The notes beneath the pieces were generated by a model, which saw only the letters and a program-made list of their open reading frames with translations, had not been told where the DNA came from and made no database searches. Positions 10,902 to 26,250 of a DNA stretch of 64,000 bases are shown one piece after another (the first letter of the stretch is position 1; each line of letters opens with the position of its first letter). Made by a program: the position numbers and the translations under genes. This stretch comes from Histidinibacterium aquaticum (lineage in GTDB: Bacteria; Pseudomonadota; Alphaproteobacteria; Rhodobacterales; Rhodobacteraceae), in assembly GCF_008710275.1 (NCBI RefSeq), contig NZ_VYQE01000004.1, forward strand, positions 248,001 to 312,000. The letters are read 5' to 3'.

Positions 10902-11432
10902 TCAGGCCCGGACGAGATCCCCGAAGATGCTCTCGCCGTGCCGCTCCAGGTAGATGCGGAGCCAGGGGGTGTAACACTCGGGTCGGCGCCGGACATCCGC
11001 GGCGAGATCGTGGAGATCGATCCACCGGGTCTCCGACACTTCGGATGGGTCGGGCCGAACCTCCAGCCCCGCCGGCGCTTCGGCGACGAAGATCTCGACC
11101 ACCTCGTGCTCGATCAGCCCGCCGCCCACATCGGCCCGGTACTCGACCCGCCCGCGATGAACCGGGGCGAGACCGGAAATGCCCAGCTCCTCCCGGAGCC
11201 GCCGAATTGCGCAGTCCGCCGCGCTCTCGTCCCAGCCGGGGTGCGTGCAGCAGGTGTTCGCCCAGAGCCCGGGGGTATGGTACTTCCCCTCGGCCCGGCG
11301 CTGGACCAGCACCTCGCTCCCGCGCAGCACGAAGACGCTCACCGCCTTGTGCCGCAGCCCCAGCCGGTGCGCCTCGAGTTTGTCGACCGGCGTCAGCGCA
11401 CCATCGACCCAGGCGGGAATGGTGTCCGTCAC
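10902..11432 (-). CDS. idi: Isopentenyl-diphosphate delta-isomerase (type I)
   Basis: 176 residues, the exact length of ORF176 in the R. capsulatus cluster. Interconverts IPP and DMAPP, balancing precursors for phytyl, carotenoids and quinones. Seen: NUDIX-fold type I Idi motifs: HRLGLRHKAVSVF with its metal-binding His residues, the WANTCCTHP catalytic Cys segment and RRLREELGI. GTG start overlapping the bchP stop by 4 nt. Last gene of the bchG-orf428-bchP-idi operon, a conserved order. Confidence 0.95.
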   Translation of the reverse strand: MTDTIPAWVDGALTPVDKLEAHRLGLRHKAVSVFVLRGSEVLVQRRAEGKYHTPGLWANTCCTHPGWDESAADCAIRRLREELGISGLAPVHRGRVEYRADVGGGLIEHEVVEIFVAEAPAGLEVRPDPSEVSETRWIDLHDLAADVRRRPECYTPWLRIYLERHGESIFGDLVRA

Positions 11433-12607
11433 ACGCGCTCCGCGGAGACCAGTCCGGTAAGATGGGCCATGTTCTTCAATCCGATCTTGATGTGCGCAAG
11501 CGGCCGCGCCTTCACGAGCTTCTTGTTCATATAGGCCTCGAAGGTCAGCCTTTGAACGTCAATGTCGTGGCAGAGCGACACGAACCGCTCCCGCCGCTCG
11601 TCGCTCCGGTAATAGGCCCGCTGCATCGCGCCGAGAACCCGGAAAACCTGCCCGTGTTCCTTGAGGAACAGCCGCCGTGCGAGCTGCAGATCCTTCACCC
11701 GACCCGTCTTGAGGTAGGCCGCCGCCGCCGTGGCGGCGACCCGGCCGCCGATCATCGCGTAGTAGATGCCCTCTCCCGAAGAGGGCGCGACCACGCCGGC
11801 CGCGTCGCCGGCGAGCAACACGTCCTTCCCGTTGTCCCAGCGCTTCAGCGGCTCCAGCGGGATCGGGGCGCCCTCGCGCCGGATCGTCTCGCAATCCGCC
11901 AGCCCGCTCGCCTCGCGCAGCGCGGCGGTGGCGGCCTTGAGGTTCACGTCCTTGACGAGGCTCCCCATCCCCACGCTCGCCTGCCCGCCATGCGGGAAGA
12001 CCCAACCGTAGAAGTCGGGCGAGATCCGCCCGTCGTAGACCACGTCGCAGCGGTCGGGATGATACTCCCCGCGCGGTCCGGGGGCCGCGATGATCTCGTG
12101 GTAGGCGATGACGTAGGGGATGCGGTCGCCGCCCTCGACCTCGTCGCGCGCCACGTTGGACCGCGCCCCGTCCGCGCCGATCACCAGCTTCGCCCGGGTC
12201 CTCCGTTCCTCGCCCGTCGCTTTGTCGCGCCAGACGACGGTGGAACCCATCTCGTCCCGCTCGATCCGAAGATAGGTTCCGGTGAGCCGCTCGGCCCCGG
12301 CCGAGGCGGCGCGGGCGCGCAGGAACTCGTCGAAATGCTCGCGGTCGACCATGCCGACGAAGCCGTTCTCGATCGGGATGTCGACGCGCCGCCCCGTCGG
12401 GGAGATCATCCGCGTCGTCCGGATCCGGGCCACGAGCTGATCCTCGGGGATGTCGAAGTCCGCGATGAGCCGGGGCGGGATCGCGCCACCGCAGGGCTTG
12501 ATCCGGCCCGCCCGGTCCAGAAGCGCAACGGAATGGCCGGAGCGGACGAGGTCCTCCGCGGCGGTCGCGCCCGAGGGCCCGCCTCCCACGACGATGGCGT
12601 CATACAT
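11429..12607 (-). CDS. bchP: Geranylgeranyl diphosphate/bacteriochlorophyll reductase
   Basis: 392 residues. FAD-dependent reductase that saturates three double bonds of the geranylgeranyl tail to give phytylated bacteriochlorophyll a. Seen: N-terminal dinucleotide-binding motif AIVVGGGPSGATAAEDL, a second flavin motif with VIGADGARS near residue 145, and LLAGDAAGVVAPSSGEGI near residue 265, all typical of the BchP/ChlP family. The start at 12607 gives the right N-terminus; upstream in-frame codons belong to a different gene's strand shadow. It begins 5 nt after orf428 and overlaps idi by 4 nt. Confidence 0.95.
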   Translation of the reverse strand: MYDAIVVGGGPSGATAAEDLVRSGHSVALLDRAGRIKPCGGAIPPRLIADFDIPEDQLVARIRTTRMISPTGRRVDIPIENGFVGMVDREHFDEFLRARAASAGAERLTGTYLRIERDEMGSTVVWRDKATGEERRTRAKLVIGADGARSNVARDEVEGGDRIPYVIAYHEIIAAPGPRGEYHPDRCDVVYDGRISPDFYGWVFPHGGQASVGMGSLVKDVNLKAATAALREASGLADCETIRREGAPIPLEPLKRWDNGKDVLLAGDAAGVVAPSSGEGIYYAMIGGRVAATAAAAYLKTGRVKDLQLARRLFLKEHGQVFRVLGAMQRAYYRSDERRERFVSLCHDIDVQRLTFEAYMNKKLVKARPLAHIKIGLKNMAHLTGLVSAERV

Positions 12608-12612
12608 CGGCT

Positions 12613-13890
12613 CTACTCCCCCGGAACGAGCTCCGGGGTGCGGCCCCGGTCCATGATGCGCGCCGCCATTAGTGCGGCGGCGACGAAGAGGGTCGCCTCG
12701 AAGAGAAAGACCCCGGCAAAAGCTTCGGCGTCGGGCAGCAGCCCGCGCAGCAGGTCGACGGCGGCGGCCCCGGTGAGCCCGCCGAACCCGGCGGCGATGG
12801 CCTGCGCCGCGCCCCAGAGGCCCATGCGGGTCCCCTCGCGCCGCTCGCGGCCCTCTCCCGCCATGGCCATCATCGACCCGATTGCGGCGACGGCGAACAT
12901 ACCGTTGAAGACGCCGAGCGTGACCACGGCGGGCACGAAGGCCCCCGCGAGTCCCGCCGGACCGAGCGCCGCGATGACCGCGAGCGCCGTGGCGGAGCCG
13001 ATGCACCCGGCGATGACCCAGTGCCGAAGCGCTCCGATCCGCAGGCCAGTCGCCGCGATCCCCACGGCCAGCATCCCAAGGAAGACACCGCCGTTCTGCG
13101 CGCCGGACAACGAGGTCGACTGGCCCGGCGTGAAGTCGAAGACGAGACCGGCGTAGGGCTCGAGGATGAGCTCCTGCATGAAGTAGGCGGTCATCGACAG
13201 GAACACGAAGAGCGTGAAATTCTGGGCCCGCGGCTCGGCCCAGACCTGGGCGAGGCCCTCGCGGAAGGGCGTCCCTTCCGGCTGGCGCTCTTGCCGCACA
13301 CGGGCCTCGATGCCCCAGACGGCGACAGTGGTCAGCAGGACGGCCCCGCCGGTCACCACGCCCACGATCTTCATCAGCCGCAGGGGCGTGTAGGGGTCGA
13401 GGATCTGGCCGACGATCCCGGCGGTGAGGGCGATGCCGAAGATCATCATCAGCCAGGTGATCGTCGCCGCCGCCGCACGCCGCCGCTCGGCCGTGGCGGT
13501 CGCCAGCAGGGCGAGGAGCGAGGTGCCCGAGGCGCCGACGCCCGCGCCGATCATGACGTAGGCGAGAACCGAGAGGGCCAGCGCCCCCGCGTAACTCACG
13601 GGGAAGAGCGGAATGCAGAGCGCAGCCAGCGCAGCCCCGGCAGCGAGCATCGCCATGCCGCCGATGATGTAGCGCGTCCGCTTGCCGCCCGTGTCCGAGG
13701 CATGTCCCCAATGCGGGCGCGACAGCTGCACGGCGTAGTGCAAGCCCACCAGTAGCCCCGGCAGGATCGCGGCAAGCGACAGCTCGACCACCATGAGCCG
13801 GTTCAGGGTCGATGTCGTCAGAACCACGATGGAGCCGAGGCACATCTGTACGAGCCCGAGCCGCACGATCTGTATCCAGGAGAGCGTCAT
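12613..13890 (-). CDS. PucC-family MFS protein of the bchG-bchP operon (ORF428-like)
   Basis: 425 residues, 12 predicted transmembrane helices, BCD/PucC major-facilitator subfamily. Seen: N-terminal IQIVRLGLVQMCLGSIVVLTTSTLNRLMVVEL, matching the LhaA/PucC signature, but the second half is clearly different from LhaA encoded at 26943. Its place between bchG and bchP is the same as ORF428 of R. capsulatus (Bch2). Known PucC-type proteins assist assembly of light-harvesting complexes, probably by delivering bacteriochlorophyll; a role in pigment hand-over from BchG/BchP is inferred. Confidence 0.9.
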   Translation of the reverse strand: MTLSWIQIVRLGLVQMCLGSIVVLTTSTLNRLMVVELSLAAILPGLLVGLHYAVQLSRPHWGHASDTGGKRTRYIIGGMAMLAAGAALAALCIPLFPVSYAGALALSVLAYVMIGAGVGASGTSLLALLATATAERRRAAAATITWLMMIFGIALTAGIVGQILDPYTPLRLMKIVGVVTGGAVLLTTVAVWGIEARVRQERQPEGTPFREGLAQVWAEPRAQNFTLFVFLSMTAYFMQELILEPYAGLVFDFTPGQSTSLSGAQNGGVFLGMLAVGIAATGLRIGALRHWVIAGCIGSATALAVIAALGPAGLAGAFVPAVVTLGVFNGMFAVAAIGSMMAMAGEGRERREGTRMGLWGAAQAIAAGFGGLTGAAAVDLLRGLLPDAEAFAGVFLFEATLFVAAALMAARIMDRGRTPELVPGE

Positions 13891-13891
13891 G

Positions 13892-14803
13892 TCAGACCCC
13901 CAGTCCGCGCAGCGCCGTGGCCGCGATCATCATGCCGGTGATGTAGAGAAGGACCCCGGTGCCGTTGTACCAGGGCGCCTTGCCCTTCGGGTCGCGCAGC
14001 AGGGTCCGCATGGCGAGGGCCTGCAGCAGCAAAAGCCCGGCGACCGCGAGCGCATGCCAGGGCCGGTCCCAGAAAGCGAGAAGGCCGACGACGACAGCTT
14101 GCGGAAGCGCCATGACGGCGCAGGCGAGCCTGGCCGCCCGCTCGGGGCCGAGCGTGACGGGCAATGAGTTCACGCCGGTCTGGCGATCGCCTTCCAGCGC
14201 CTTGAAATCGTTGAGCGTCATGATCCCGTGCGCGCCGATCCCGTAGAGCAGGGCGACGAGCAGGACCTCGGGGGCAGGGGCGCCGGCCGAGAGAACCGCG
14301 GCGCCGGTAATCCAGGGCAGGGTCTCGTAGGACAGGCCCACCAGTCCCGGACCCCACCAGCCGGAACGCTTCAACCGCACGGGCTCTGCCGAATAGGCCC
14401 AGGCGGCGAGCACGGCGGCCACGGTCGCGCCGAACCCCCAGGGCCCGAGTTGCCAGCCCACGAGCAGAGACAAAGCGGACATCGCGAGCGCGATCCAGAG
14501 CCCCCATCGCCCGGGAATGCGGCCCGAGGGGATCGGGCGGTCGGGCTCGTTGATCGCGTCGACGTGCCGATCGCACCAGTCGTTGGCCGCCTGGCTCATC
14601 CCGCAGACGATGGGACCGGCGAGCAGAATGCCGAGAAGCACCAGCCCCCAGCCCTGCGACAGCGACCCGCCCGAGGAGACAGCCCCGCAGGCGAAGGCCC
14701 ACATCGGCGGGAACCAGGTGATCGGCTTGATGAGTTGCAGCGCCGCCCGCGGCTCGGGCCAGCGGCGTGCCTCGAGGGCGGCGATGTCGGGGGTCGCACT
14801 CAT
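13892..14803 (-). CDS. bchG: Bacteriochlorophyll a synthase (geranylgeranyl transferase)
   Basis: 303 residues. UbiA-family membrane prenyltransferase that esterifies bacteriochlorophyllide a with geranylgeranyl diphosphate. Seen: the Mg2+/diphosphate motif NDWCDRHVDAINEPDRPIPS around residue 75 and about nine hydrophobic helices. First gene of bchG-orf428-bchP-idi; orf428 starts 1 nt after its stop. No Shine-Dalgarno sequence precedes the ATG. A TAGACT -10-like hexamer ends 6 nt before it, so a leaderless transcript is possible. Two PpsR operators flank this promoter. In R. capsulatus bchE and bchJ precede bchG; here they do not. Confidence 0.95.
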   Translation of the reverse strand: MSATPDIAALEARRWPEPRAALQLIKPITWFPPMWAFACGAVSSGGSLSQGWGLVLLGILLAGPIVCGMSQAANDWCDRHVDAINEPDRPIPSGRIPGRWGLWIALAMSALSLLVGWQLGPWGFGATVAAVLAAWAYSAEPVRLKRSGWWGPGLVGLSYETLPWITGAAVLSAGAPAPEVLLVALLYGIGAHGIMTLNDFKALEGDRQTGVNSLPVTLGPERAARLACAVMALPQAVVVGLLAFWDRPWHALAVAGLLLLQALAMRTLLRDPKGKAPWYNGTGVLLYITGMMIAATALRGLGV

Positions 14804-14805
14804 GG

Positions 14806-14823
14806 TGTCAGTCTAGGCTGACG
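14806..14823 (-). promoter_or_regulatory. PpsR operator overlapping the bchG -10 region
   Basis: TGTCA-N8-TGACG, one base off the TGT-N12-ACA consensus. It covers a TAGACT -10-like hexamer (14810-14815) for bchG on the minus strand; a TTGCCG -35-like hexamer sits 18 bp upstream. Confidence 0.7.
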
Positions 14824-14840
14824 GCGCGATTCTCGGCAAG

Positions 14841-14858
14841 TGTAAACTCAGCCTGACA
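14841..14858 (-). promoter_or_regulatory. PpsR operator upstream of the bchG -35 region
   Basis: A perfect TGT-N12-ACA (TGTAAACTCAGCCTGACA), 35 bp from the other site start to start. Paired operators of this kind are known for PpsR/CrtJ repression. It overlaps the stop codon of the neighbouring CDF gene. Confidence 0.8.
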
Positions 14859-15762
14859 CCCGGTGCCCGATGACCTTCGGATCGGTGCAGGCGTGGTTCG
14901 AACATTCCAATTCGAGCGTCGAATGGTCGATGCCGACGCGCTGCAGCGCGTCCTTGACCCGGCCCTTGATCGCGTCTGCCTCGCCCCAGCGGCCTGCCGC
15001 GATCACGACGTGCGCCTCGAGGGCCGGGCGATGCTCCTCCATCTGCCAGAGGTGCGCGTGGTGGACGGAGTCCACGCCTTCGACTGCCGCGATGTCCCGA
15101 ACCACGTTGCCCGTGTCGATCGTGTCGGGCGCGCCGAGCATCAGGATCCGGATGACGCCGCCGATTTCCGCGATGGACATCCACAGGATGTAACCGGCGA
15201 TGGCGAAGGTCACGATCGGGTCGACGATGGTCCAGCCGAAGAGCAGGATCAGCGAGCCCGCGACGATGACGGCAACCGAACCCAGCGCGTCCGCGAGATT
15301 GTGCAGGAAGGCGGCGCGGATGTTCTGGCTCGTCTTCGACATGGCGTAGGTCAGCGCCGCCGTCGCCAGGTCGACCGCGAGGGCGATGCCGGCAACGATC
15401 ACCATGATCCAGCCGGCAACGGGCTCGGGCGAGATCACGCCCATCAGGGCCTCGTAGACGAGGTAGAGTGCCAGGACGATCAGCGTGGTGTAATTCACCA
15501 GCGCCGCCACCGTTTCGGCCCGCGCGTAGCCGAAGGTCATCTCGGCGTCGGCCGGGCGGCGCGCGATCTTGCGGGCGACGAGCGCGATCACCAGCGCGAG
15601 CGCGTCGGAGAGGTTGTGAAGCGCGTCGGCGATCAACGCCAGGGAGCCCGAGATCACGCCACCCACCACCTGCGCGACGGTGAGGAACAGGTTCACGCCC
15701 ACCGCGGCGACGAGCTTGCCGTCGCCCTGCGGGACATGGTGATGATGGTGATCGTGCGGCAT
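14848..15762 (-). CDS. Cation diffusion facilitator (Zn2+/Co2+-type exporter)
   Basis: 304 residues, six predicted transmembrane helices then a cytoplasmic domain. CDF antiporters export divalent metals, most often Zn2+, using protons. Seen: a His-rich N-terminus (HDHHHHH); LIADALHNLSDALAL in TM2 and FLHNLADALGS in TM5, giving the His/Asp pairs of a zinc-type site; a C-terminal domain from about residue 205 with several His/Cys. No good ribosome site precedes the ATG. It lies between bchG and ppsR, where other species have bchJ/bchE, so a metal transporter here is unusual. Confidence 0.88.
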   Translation of the reverse strand: MPHDHHHHHVPQGDGKLVAAVGVNLFLTVAQVVGGVISGSLALIADALHNLSDALALVIALVARKIARRPADAEMTFGYARAETVAALVNYTTLIVLALYLVYEALMGVISPEPVAGWIMVIVAGIALAVDLATAALTYAMSKTSQNIRAAFLHNLADALGSVAVIVAGSLILLFGWTIVDPIVTFAIAGYILWMSIAEIGGVIRILMLGAPDTIDTGNVVRDIAAVEGVDSVHHAHLWQMEEHRPALEAHVVIAAGRWGEADAIKGRVKDALQRVGIDHSTLELECSNHACTDPKVIGHRVSG

Positions 15763-15802: not shown

Positions 15803-17230
15803 TCAGGCCTCGTCGTCCCGGCTCAGCAGTCCGTATTTGCGGAGCTTCACGTAAAGCGACTGGCGCGAGAGGCCGAGCATCTCGGCCGCGGCGACCCGGT
15901 TGTTCATGGTCAGCTCGACCGCGGTCTCGATGCACATCTTCTCGACCACGTTGGTCGTCTCGCTGACGATCTCCTTGAGCGTCGCGGAGCCCACGAGTTC
16001 CATGACCGACCGCATCCCCTCGTCGCTCACCGGCGAGGCGGCGCTGCGAACCGTCTCGGCGCGCGAGACGTCGCGGATCACGTAGGCAAAGATCTGGGCC
16101 TCGCCGGCGTCTAGCGCGGTCGCCGCGATCTCGACGGAGCGGGGCCTGGTGTAGTCGCCCATCACCTTCGTCGCGTACATTCGCATGCGACCTGCCCTGG
16201 CGGCGTTTTCCGACAGAACCCGCAGATCGACCGAGCCGCGGTGCAGGAACTCGGTCAGGGAACGTCCCTTCACGCTGAGGTCGTGCGCTGTGTCGATGAG
16301 GTCGAGGAAGCCCTCGTTCGCGGAGAGGATCGTGCCGCCCGCATCCGTGAAGACGATCGCGTCCGGCCCGCTCTGGTAGAGGTCGATCAGCCGGTTCGAC
16401 AGCGCATCCTGGCTCACCTTGCCCTCGGACAGCGGTTCGATCCGGACAAGGAGCATCCGCTCGCCTGCGGAGCGGAAGATGGTCGGCACCAGCGAGACGG
16501 GCTCCTTGCCGTGGCGCACCAGGGCGTCTACCGGCACGGGCCGGTCCGACAGGGCCTGGGTGCGCAGCGTCTCGATCAGGTCGCCCTTGCGCTTCGGCTC
16601 GCAGAGTTCGGAGAGCCCGGCCTCCGGCAGGTCGTCGCGGCGCCGCCCGAGCAATGCGCCCGCCGCGGTATTGCCCTCGACGATGCGGCCGTCGTGGACC
16701 GAGACGAAAACATAGGCCTCGCGGCTCGCTTCCATCAGCACCCGGTAGCGGGTGTCGCTCTCTCTCTGGGCCTCGTAGTCCCGTTCGAGCGCGATCTGAG
16801 CCTTGACCAGCTGCTGCTGCATCTCGGCGACGGGCTTGAGGTCGCGGCCGAGCAGGAGGATCGCGCCGTCAGGGCCGATCCGGTGGAAGGAGTAGCGAAC
16901 GGGGAAGTCGGGGCTGACCTGGCCGTAGGAATGGTTCAACTCGATGGGCCGGACGTTGCCTGTCTCGCCGCCCTCCAGGAAGCTCTGCAGGCGCTCGTCG
17001 AACTTCTCCACGCTCTCCGAGGTCAGTCCGGTCCGGAAGTCCTGCCCCTCGAGGCCGTGCAAGGCCTGGAAGCTATCGTTCATCGGGTTCACGAGGACCG
17101 ACAGGACGGACCCTGTCTCGGACACCACGACACCCACGTCCGATATCTGGGTGATGATATCGCCGAGTATCTCGGGCGCGATGAGCGGAATGGCTCCGCT
17201 GTTCCAGTATTTGGCCCCCCGGGAGGTCAA
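15803..17230 (-). CDS. ppsR: Photosynthesis repressor PpsR (CrtJ)
   Basis: 475 residues from the proposed TTG at 17230. Redox- and light-linked repressor of bch, crt and puc genes; binds TGT-N12-ACA. Seen: N-terminal PAS-like region, conserved LLLGRDLKPVAEMQQQLVKAQ Q-linker, PAS1 (about 155-260), PAS2 (about 275-385), and a C-terminal Fis-type helix-turn-helix NNRVAAAEMLGLSRQSLYVKL. The redox Cys before the HTH is present in EKMCIETA; the second Cys of R. sphaeroides PpsR is replaced in its PAS region. An in-frame ATG at 17320 would add 30 residues that run into ppaA and do not resemble PpsR. Confidence 0.92.
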   Translation of the reverse strand: MTSRGAKYWNSGAIPLIAPEILGDIITQISDVGVVVSETGSVLSVLVNPMNDSFQALHGLEGQDFRTGLTSESVEKFDERLQSFLEGGETGNVRPIELNHSYGQVSPDFPVRYSFHRIGPDGAILLLGRDLKPVAEMQQQLVKAQIALERDYEAQRESDTRYRVLMEASREAYVFVSVHDGRIVEGNTAAGALLGRRRDDLPEAGLSELCEPKRKGDLIETLRTQALSDRPVPVDALVRHGKEPVSLVPTIFRSAGERMLLVRIEPLSEGKVSQDALSNRLIDLYQSGPDAIVFTDAGGTILSANEGFLDLIDTAHDLSVKGRSLTEFLHRGSVDLRVLSENAARAGRMRMYATKVMGDYTRPRSVEIAATALDAGEAQIFAYVIRDVSRAETVRSAASPVSDEGMRSVMELVGSATLKEIVSETTNVVEKMCIETAVELTMNNRVAAAEMLGLSRQSLYVKLRKYGLLSRDDEA

Positions 17231-17265
17231 AGTACGCTCTTGTGGTAGCGCCGTGGCCTCATGGG

Positions 17266-18075
17266 TCAGGTCCTCATCATGCGGGGTGCGAGAGGTCCGC
17301 AGTCTTGGTTCAGGTCGCACCGGTCGAGAGCCTCGTTCAGATCGTTGGTGCCGAAATCGGCGCCCGTCGAACGGCAGAGGTCCCGCGCCGTCTCGACGAC
17401 GCTTCCGCCGATTACGACGGGCGGCGATCCGATCACCGCCCGGCGCAGCGTTTCCACTACCTTGCCGAGGGAATCAAGCGATTGCCCGCGCGCCGCCGAA
17501 ATCATCACGGCGTCGTACCGGCCGGGCATTGGTTCGCGGCGCATCTCCCGGTGGCAGAAGCCGAGCTTCACGCGGACCGAAATCCCCCGCCGGCGCATCT
17601 GCCCTGCCAGGACGAGGGCACCCAACGTGTGCTGCTCCTCGGCCGGAACGACTAACAGGACCGTCTGGGCGTCCGGCGCCGCGGACCTGTCGGCCCGCCA
17701 GTCGGGCGAAACCGCCCGCAGCAGGCCCTGCAACCGGGCGAGGCTGATCGTGACGAGGGTGAAGCTCAGGCGGTCGGCACACCACTCCTCGCCGATCCGG
17801 CGGGCGAGGGCGGGAATGTAGAGATCGGCGACCGCCTCGGGCCGGATCCCCGACGCGATCATCCGCCGGAGCACCAGGAGGCTGCCGTCACGCTCGGGGT
17901 CGCACACGGCGCTGTCGAGCTGGTCCATGAAGCCCGCGTTCAGCTCTCCGGAGCGTCCCTCCGGCCGAGGCGCACGCGCCGCGACGACCGAGAGCGCCCG
18001 GTTCGCGAGAGAGCCGACCCCGCGCCCGGAGGCATCGCGCGGCGCGGTGTCCCTTTGGCTGGGCTTTTCCGGCAT
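17266..18075 (-). CDS. ppaA: B12-binding antirepressor PpaA/AerR
   Basis: 269 residues. Cobalamin-binding partner of PpsR/CrtJ that modulates repression, linking pigment genes to light and B12. Seen: a helical domain with ADLYIPALARRIGEEWCADRLSFTLVTI (about 83-110), then a Rossmann-like B12 domain without the DxHxxG motif. A His in AEEQHTLGA (residue 149) matches the cobalamin-ligand His of AerR. The ATG at 18075 is chosen because ggagg lies 8 nt upstream; upstream in-frame ATGs read into the operator region. Cotranscribed with ppsR. Confidence 0.9.
   Translation of the reverse strand: MPEKPSQRDTAPRDASGRGVGSLANRALSVVAARAPRPEGRSGELNAGFMDQLDSAVCDPERDGSLLVLRRMIASGIRPEAVADLYIPALARRIGEEWCADRLSFTLVTISLARLQGLLRAVSPDWRADRSAAPDAQTVLLVVPAEEQHTLGALVLAGQMRRRGISVRVKLGFCHREMRREPMPGRYDAVMISAARGQSLDSLGKVVETLRRAVIGSPPVVIGGSVVETARDLCRSTGADFGTNDLNEALDRCDLNQDCGPLAPRMMRT

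Positions 18076-18358: not shown

Positions 18359-20143
<1,785 letters not shown>

Positions 20144-21755: not shown

Positions 21756-26250
<4,495 letters not shown>

Follow-up and report, generated by a model that had tools for sequence, protein, structure and literature searches.

A predicted leaderless bchG promoter overlapped by PpsR-type operators in Histidinibacterium aquaticum and related Alphaproteobacteria

Genes and promoter features at the bchG locus

We analyzed a stretch of 64,000 nucleotides from Histidinibacterium aquaticum, hereafter called the window. The features at its bchG locus are as follows, in the direction of transcription.

15803 to 17320, minus strand: ppsR, the cognate repressor gene (TIGR02040 PpsR-CrtJ, 429 bits against a cut-off of 275; Fis-type HTH, PF02954)
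14848 to 15762, minus strand: CDF cation-efflux gene between ppsR and bchG, with its stop codon inside operator 1
14858 to 14841, minus strand: PpsR/CrtJ-type operator 1 (site 1), TGTCAGGCTGAGTTTACA, a perfect TGT-N12-ACA directly upstream of the -35 element
14839 to 14834, minus strand: -35 element TTGCCG (CTTG at 14840 to 14837; a single C separates operator 1 from TTGCCG)
14823 to 14806, minus strand: PpsR/CrtJ-type operator 2 (site 2), CGTCAGCCTAGACTGACA, one mismatch to TGT-N12-ACA, overlying the -10 element
14815 to 14810, minus strand: -10 element TAGACT, with an 18-bp spacer from the -35 and 6 bases to the bchG ATG
14803, minus strand: predicted transcription start, placed by its distance from the -10 at the A of the bchG ATG, plus or minus about 2 bases
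13892 to 14803, minus strand: bchG, (bacterio)chlorophyll synthase, 303 amino acids (NF005742, 409 bits, and TIGR01476, 372 bits, both above cut-off)
12613 to 13890, minus strand: orf428, probable BCD-family MFS transporter, by its open reading frame and by synteny with the annotated records of R. litoralis and Thalassococcus
between orf428 and idi, minus strand: bchP, assigned by open reading frame and synteny only
10902 to 11432, minus strand: idi, which closes the bchG-orf428-bchP-idi set (scores above cut-off for NF002995 and TIGR02150)

The product of bchG carries out the final step in the synthesis of bacteriochlorophyll, and its start codon is an ATG at 14803 to 14801 on the minus strand. 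The sequence before it has the form of a sigma70-type promoter, with TTG in the -35, a TAnnnT -10, and a spacer within 16 to 19 bp. One perfect and one one-mismatch palindrome, 35 bp apart from start to start, form a pair of the PpsR/CrtJ type, and the cognate ppsR lies in the same genome. No Shine-Dalgarno sequence precedes bchG, the longest complement to the anti-Shine-Dalgarno at positions -18 to -4 being 3 bases, and this absence together with the AUG start codon is typical of leaderless starts. This ATG is the sole in-frame ATG, GTG, or TTG from the upstream stop (-12) to the conserved BchG block, which leaves no alternative downstream start codon before that block in the window; an alternative ATG occurred in 7 of 132 related loci. 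The sequence-only reading of this DNA had described TTGCCG-18-TAGACT six bases from the ATG, the missing Shine-Dalgarno, and paired PpsR sites 35 bp apart with one over the -10 and the perfect one just upstream of the -35, and each of these details was confirmed.

Perfect TGT-N12-ACA sites were only modestly enriched in the window (7 versus 2.78 expected; 2 of 100 shuffles reached 7), and thus a single palindrome is not decisive. The identity of the operators is carried by their position and by their recurrence in relatives rather than by the enrichment of single sites. Operator 1 includes the stop codon TGA (14850 to 14848) of the upstream CDF gene, and two loci of the same genus (L002 and L004) seem, by eye, to share this CDF end. 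At the other end of bchG, orf428, for which no NCBIfam model scored above cut-off, begins with an ATG placed a single base beyond the bchG stop (13888 to 13894, minus strand); because of this position, translation of orf428 may be coupled to that of bchG.

Loci, control genes, and tests

We searched 394 family genomes, nearly one per genus, and found bchG in 164. The Rhodobacteraceae set of 151 loci, hereafter the family loci, consisted of the 150 of these 164 that were among the matches listed plus L004; one omitted locus began at a contig edge. Weaker UbiA-family matches (L016 to L026) were left out, and the nonfamily L014 was also removed (152 to 151). Site 2 was sought as the best match among in-frame starts and nine offsets, a procedure with a rough chance level of about 8% for one mismatch and below 1% for a perfect site. 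The 134 loci with site 2, minus two with non-ATG starts, gave a 132-locus set for promoter, conservation, codon, and gap counts. A separate set of 80 loci, overlapping the main family loci, entered the codon totals and the tree. Control genes were 71 of the 77 annotated features in the two records from R. litoralis and Thalassococcus, after exclusion of both bchG genes, two cut features, one CDS at a stretch edge, and one other CDS. The outgroup comprised 39 bchG loci outside the family, drawn from class-wide (27 of 385 genomes with a match) and phylum-wide (31 of 398) searches. These were chosen without regard to any operator and were not limited to one per genus, with one genus contributing five and at least two others contributing two each. 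A strict promoter test demanded TTG, a 16- to 19-nucleotide spacer, A and T at -10 positions 2 and 6, and 5 to 8 nucleotides to the start.

Site 2 and the promoter spacing recur across the family

An equivalent of site 2 with at most one mismatch ended just before an in-frame start in 134 of the 151 family loci, 117 of them perfect, and was absent from 17. The gap between site 2 and the start was 1 to 4 nucleotides in 133 loci and 7 nucleotides in one, and the start codon was ATG in 132. In the R. litoralis and Thalassococcus records, the annotated start of bchG is one base beyond the palindrome. In 112 of the 134 loci, a CTTG corresponding to the -35 had an offset of -17 or -16 relative to site 2.

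The position of the -10 within site 2 followed the gap. Where the gap was 1 nucleotide, the better -10 lay at offset 7 in 59 of 62 loci; where it was 2 to 4, the better -10 lay at offset 8 in 50 of 65 loci, the other offset being better in 15 of 65. Fisher's test gave a P value of 6e-18 (5 ties omitted, uncorrected for relatedness), which is descriptive only because the loci are related, and an independent-pairs test on the tree yielded too few supported pairs (3 for the link between -10 and gap, 2 for the upstream versus the coding partner site described below). Since shifts of the gap are matched by the -10 offset, the -10 tends to stay 6 to 7 bases from the ATG despite the shift of the operator. 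Distances from the -10 to the start peaked at 6 to 7 nucleotides, and any other single distance accounted for at most 12 of 132 family loci (4 nucleotides) and at most 2 of 39 outgroup loci.

The strict promoter test was passed by 73 of the 132 loci; shuffled sequences gave 2.4 passes on average and 8 at most, and 2 of the 71 control CDSs passed. It was failed by the remaining 59 loci. Many -10 elements are weak; among one-base-gap loci, A and T occupied -10 positions 2 and 6 at offset 7 in only 24 of 64. As in the window, the bchG start had no competing candidate in 73 of the 132 loci. Four of the 19 family loci outside the 132-locus set passed the test at one of their ATGs, and five loci (L011, L047, L068, L117, and L153) had no evident promoter before the bchG start. 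Chance palindromes were rejected as an explanation on the shuffle, family, and control-gene counts.

A similar promoter precedes bchG outside the family

A similar predicted bchG promoter occurs in other Alphaproteobacteria. A promoter passing the strict test preceded the bchG start in 26 of the 39 outgroup loci, with the -10 at six nucleotides in 20, seven in 5, and five in 1, compared to a shuffle mean of 0.74 (maximum, 4) and the 2 of 71 control CDSs. One of these 26 (L282), from outside the class but within the same phylum, has TTGACA-17-CAGAAT six bases before the ATG. A PpsR-type site with at most one mismatch lay near the -35 in 29 of the 39 loci, 5 of which also had a site at the -10, always 26 bp apart.

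Thirteen outgroup loci failed the test. In four of them (L247, L257, L259, and L270) an upstream frame, by eye ppsR in three, ends at most 20 bases from the bchG start or overlaps it, so that cotranscription would be expected. This does not account for the other nine, although two of them (L280 and L283) have another in-frame ATG upstream where, by eye, the spacing would fit.

Predicted position of the transcript 5' end and alternative explanations

We consider it very likely, from the sequence comparisons, that bchG has a sigma70-type, PpsR-repressed promoter that starts transcription at the A of the AUG, plus or minus two bases, and yields a leaderless mRNA. With such a start the mRNA would carry no leader and would therefore be translated without a Shine-Dalgarno sequence. 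PpsR bound to the paired TGT-N12-ACA palindromes, one of which covers the -10 and ends just before the start codon, would block RNA polymerase, and relief of PpsR would allow transcription of bchG-orf428-bchP-idi. The partner palindrome in this scheme would be the one upstream of the -35 in the window and one within bchG codons 2 to 8 in many family loci. For the window organism itself, we infer from these comparisons the exact 5' end, translation without a leader, and what each site does. A start at or next to the bchG ATG, as the sequence-only reading had proposed, is supported by promoter spacing that recurs far beyond shuffles and control genes and by the depletion of Shine-Dalgarno-like matches, which would place the 5' end of the window mRNA at the A of the ATG or within about 2 bases of it. 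The proposed repression of this promoter by PpsR gains support from the binding and repression published for R. sphaeroides (PMC4344238).

We weighed three alternatives. The most plausible of them, a leader of 1 to 5 bases with a start on the A two bases before the ATG or nearby, is still unlikely. The choice of transcription start commonly varies by 1 to 2 bases, and an A stands at -2 in 72 of the 132 family loci. However, A at -2 is found in only 2 of the 39 outgroup loci. The base at -1 is a pyrimidine in 121 of the 132 family loci and in 32 of the 39 outgroup loci, which fits initiation at the A of the ATG. Even if such a short leader were formed, it would be without a ribosome-binding site. 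A more distant 5' end, in which bchG mRNA carries an ordinary leader from a start further upstream or from ppaA-ppsR-CDF read-through and the PpsR sites serve as roadblocks or mark a secondary promoter, appears improbable. It would be favored by the closeness of the codirectional CDF stop, just 44 bases upstream, and by the placement of ppsR immediately before bchG in R. litoralis and, as judged by eye, in many of the outgroup loci. Yet Shine-Dalgarno-like matches of at least 4 bases were found in 17 of 132 family loci versus 47 of 71 control CDSs (and in 1 of the 26 promoter-bearing outgroup loci), and the spacing peak 6 to 7 nucleotides from the start persists in outgroup loci unselected for operators. 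In addition, mean information did not exceed about 0.1 bit per base in the sequence preceding the -35 (loci with a coding site) or site 1 (loci with an upstream site); with so little conserved sequence there, no further promoter is visibly conserved, and a conserved promoter further upstream was rejected. Read-through transcripts with leaders, originating from ppsR or the CDF gene, may nevertheless exist beside a leaderless bchG mRNA.

The palindrome beside the ATG could also be an operator and nothing else, brought close to the start as a by-product of compact gene spacing. An operator by itself would suffice to conserve much of this sequence (TGTCA and TGACA). We regard this explanation as highly improbable, because TGT-N12-ACA includes neither the fixed-spacing -35 nor a -10 that tends to shift against the operator. 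Three loci with a damaged operator (L083, L147, and L179) keep, by eye, a -10-like hexamer six bases from the ATG, although L083 and L147 fail the strict test. The outgroup argues in the same direction: its operator lies near the -35 in 29 of 39 loci and over the -10 as well in just 5, yet the spacing between -10 and start is kept in 26.

The partner operator moves between upstream and coding positions

The second palindrome of the pair was found at two positions relative to site 2, again allowing one mismatch. A partner lay 34 to 36 bp upstream, the arrangement of the window, in 38 of the 134 family loci and 23 to 27 bp downstream in 85, of which 80 were at 24 or 25; 9 loci had both and 20 had neither. 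The downstream partner spanned bchG codons 2 to 8 in 84 of the 85 loci. A FastTree phylogeny of 109 BchG proteins required a minimum of 12 state changes for the upstream site and of 21 for the coding site. The spacings of 24 to 25 bp and 35 bp differ by about one helical turn; hence, the upstream and coding partner sites may present the same relative face of the helix. In two loci (L009 and L246), perfect PpsR-type sites occupy all three positions: one precedes the -35, one covers the -10, and one lies within the first bchG codons.

Codon usage at the coding operator was unusual. Leucine codon 7 was TTA in 45 of 64 cases, compared to 14 of 1,793 in codons 21 onward of the same 132 loci, and isoleucine was ATA in 24 of 33 cases, compared to 37 of 807 in codons 21 onward. 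These counts include all 132 loci regardless of a coding site and the available part of codons 21 onward, and P values from such related loci are descriptive. The concentration of rare TTA and ATA codons at the coding operator points to selection at the DNA level on this segment of bchG.

Comparison with known PpsR-regulated and leaderless genes

In R. sphaeroides, PpsR chromatin immunoprecipitation sequencing gave a 7.8-fold peak at bchG (chromosome 1, 2005000 to 2005599), and bchG expression changed about 8-fold in a ΔppsR strain (PMC4344238). We took our genome G079 to be the strain of that study or one with the same coordinates, since three published motifs fall inside the published peaks. 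At its bchG locus (L142, G079:C4) the published motif occupies 2005133 to 2005152 and the A of the bchG ATG is at 2005155 on the minus strand, so that the motif lies past the ATG, inside codons 2 to 8. The accessible text of PMC4344238 describes PpsR sites as upstream of operons; the bchG motif is instead coding, unlike the operator pair of the window, which is wholly upstream of bchG. The PpsR-bound R. sphaeroides operon bchG-pucC-bchP represents the same gene set as that of the window, and the same accessible text makes no mention of a leaderless bchG start. In our data, R. sphaeroides bchG has site 2 with one mismatch and a weak -10, TTAGGT, seven bases from the ATG, and it fails the strict test.

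R. capsulatus bchC, whose CrtJ palindromes occupy -4 to -21 and -30 to -47 (PMC5362033), resembles the window in its paired TGT-N12-ACA sites with the lower one over the -10. The lower palindrome, at -21 to -4, is close to the position of window site 2, which would be -20 to -3 with transcription starting at the A of the ATG. The bchC sites are 26 bp apart and the upper one covers the -35, whereas those of the window are 35 bp apart and the upper one lies just upstream of the -35. Pairs spaced by 26 bp as at bchC are found at 5 of the 39 outgroup bchG loci. In Dinoroseobacter shibae bchF (PMC10890935), TGT-N12-ACA sites cover the -10 and proposed start and the -35, and half-site mutations are derepressing. 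Relative to the translation start, these mutations hit half-sites at -79/-77 and -30/-28; thus, the proposed bchF start is well upstream of the ATG, unlike that of bchG.

A leaderless, regulated operon is known in the R. sphaeroides acuR-acuI-dddL genes, for which RACE placed the 5' end precisely at the AUG (PMC3017554). As proposed for bchG, its operator overlaps the promoter and no Shine-Dalgarno sequence is present. The difference is that acuR encodes its own TetR-type repressor, whereas bchG specifies a biosynthetic enzyme, is under PpsR repression, and can have an operator within its codons. Leaderless starts also occur in S. meliloti, where 171 were mapped (PMC3616915).

Standing and implications of the bchG arrangement

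PpsR control of bchG is already known, and paired-palindrome repression by PpsR/CrtJ and a leaderless regulated operon are known separately. For the two combined at bchG, for the conservation of this arrangement, or for an operator in the coding sequence, no paper was found among the matches listed in a search that largely covered literature other than subscription papers. We think it rather probable that leaderless bchG is an old, conserved trait of phototrophic Alphaproteobacteria, in which one module of 45 to 60 bp would contain the promoter, the operator, the start codon, and often the first eight codons. The operator, and not protein function, would therefore set the N-terminal residues and rare codons, and BchG output would not depend on a Shine-Dalgarno sequence.

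If this is true, BchG production relies on Shine-Dalgarno-independent initiation, while that of the downstream operon genes need not. Transcript starts accurate nearly to the base would then be predicted for a core photosynthesis gene in more than 100 genera. The locus would clearly exemplify a conserved gene for a biosynthetic enzyme that has stayed leaderless and whose codons carry the operator of a repressor, and it would bear on the use of leaderless translation in Gram-negative bacteria and on the annotation of start codons. For expression or recoding of bchG, synonymous changes in codons 2 to 8 would be expected to damage repression wherever the operator is coding.

Other PpsR-type palindromes in the window

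We also considered bchF (18342, plus strand) as a second leaderless case. A perfect site overlaps its first ATG, but the in-frame ATG at 18360 is the likelier start; because GAGG stands just upstream of that ATG and a Shine-Dalgarno-like leader is present at R. litoralis bchF, bchF is not claimed as leaderless. Perfect TGT-N12-ACA sites inside coding frames were present at 11563 to 11580, 19155 to 19172, and 22481 to 22498, by position in bchP, bchN, and a large downstream bch gene, respectively; chance alone would give about 3 perfect sites across the window.
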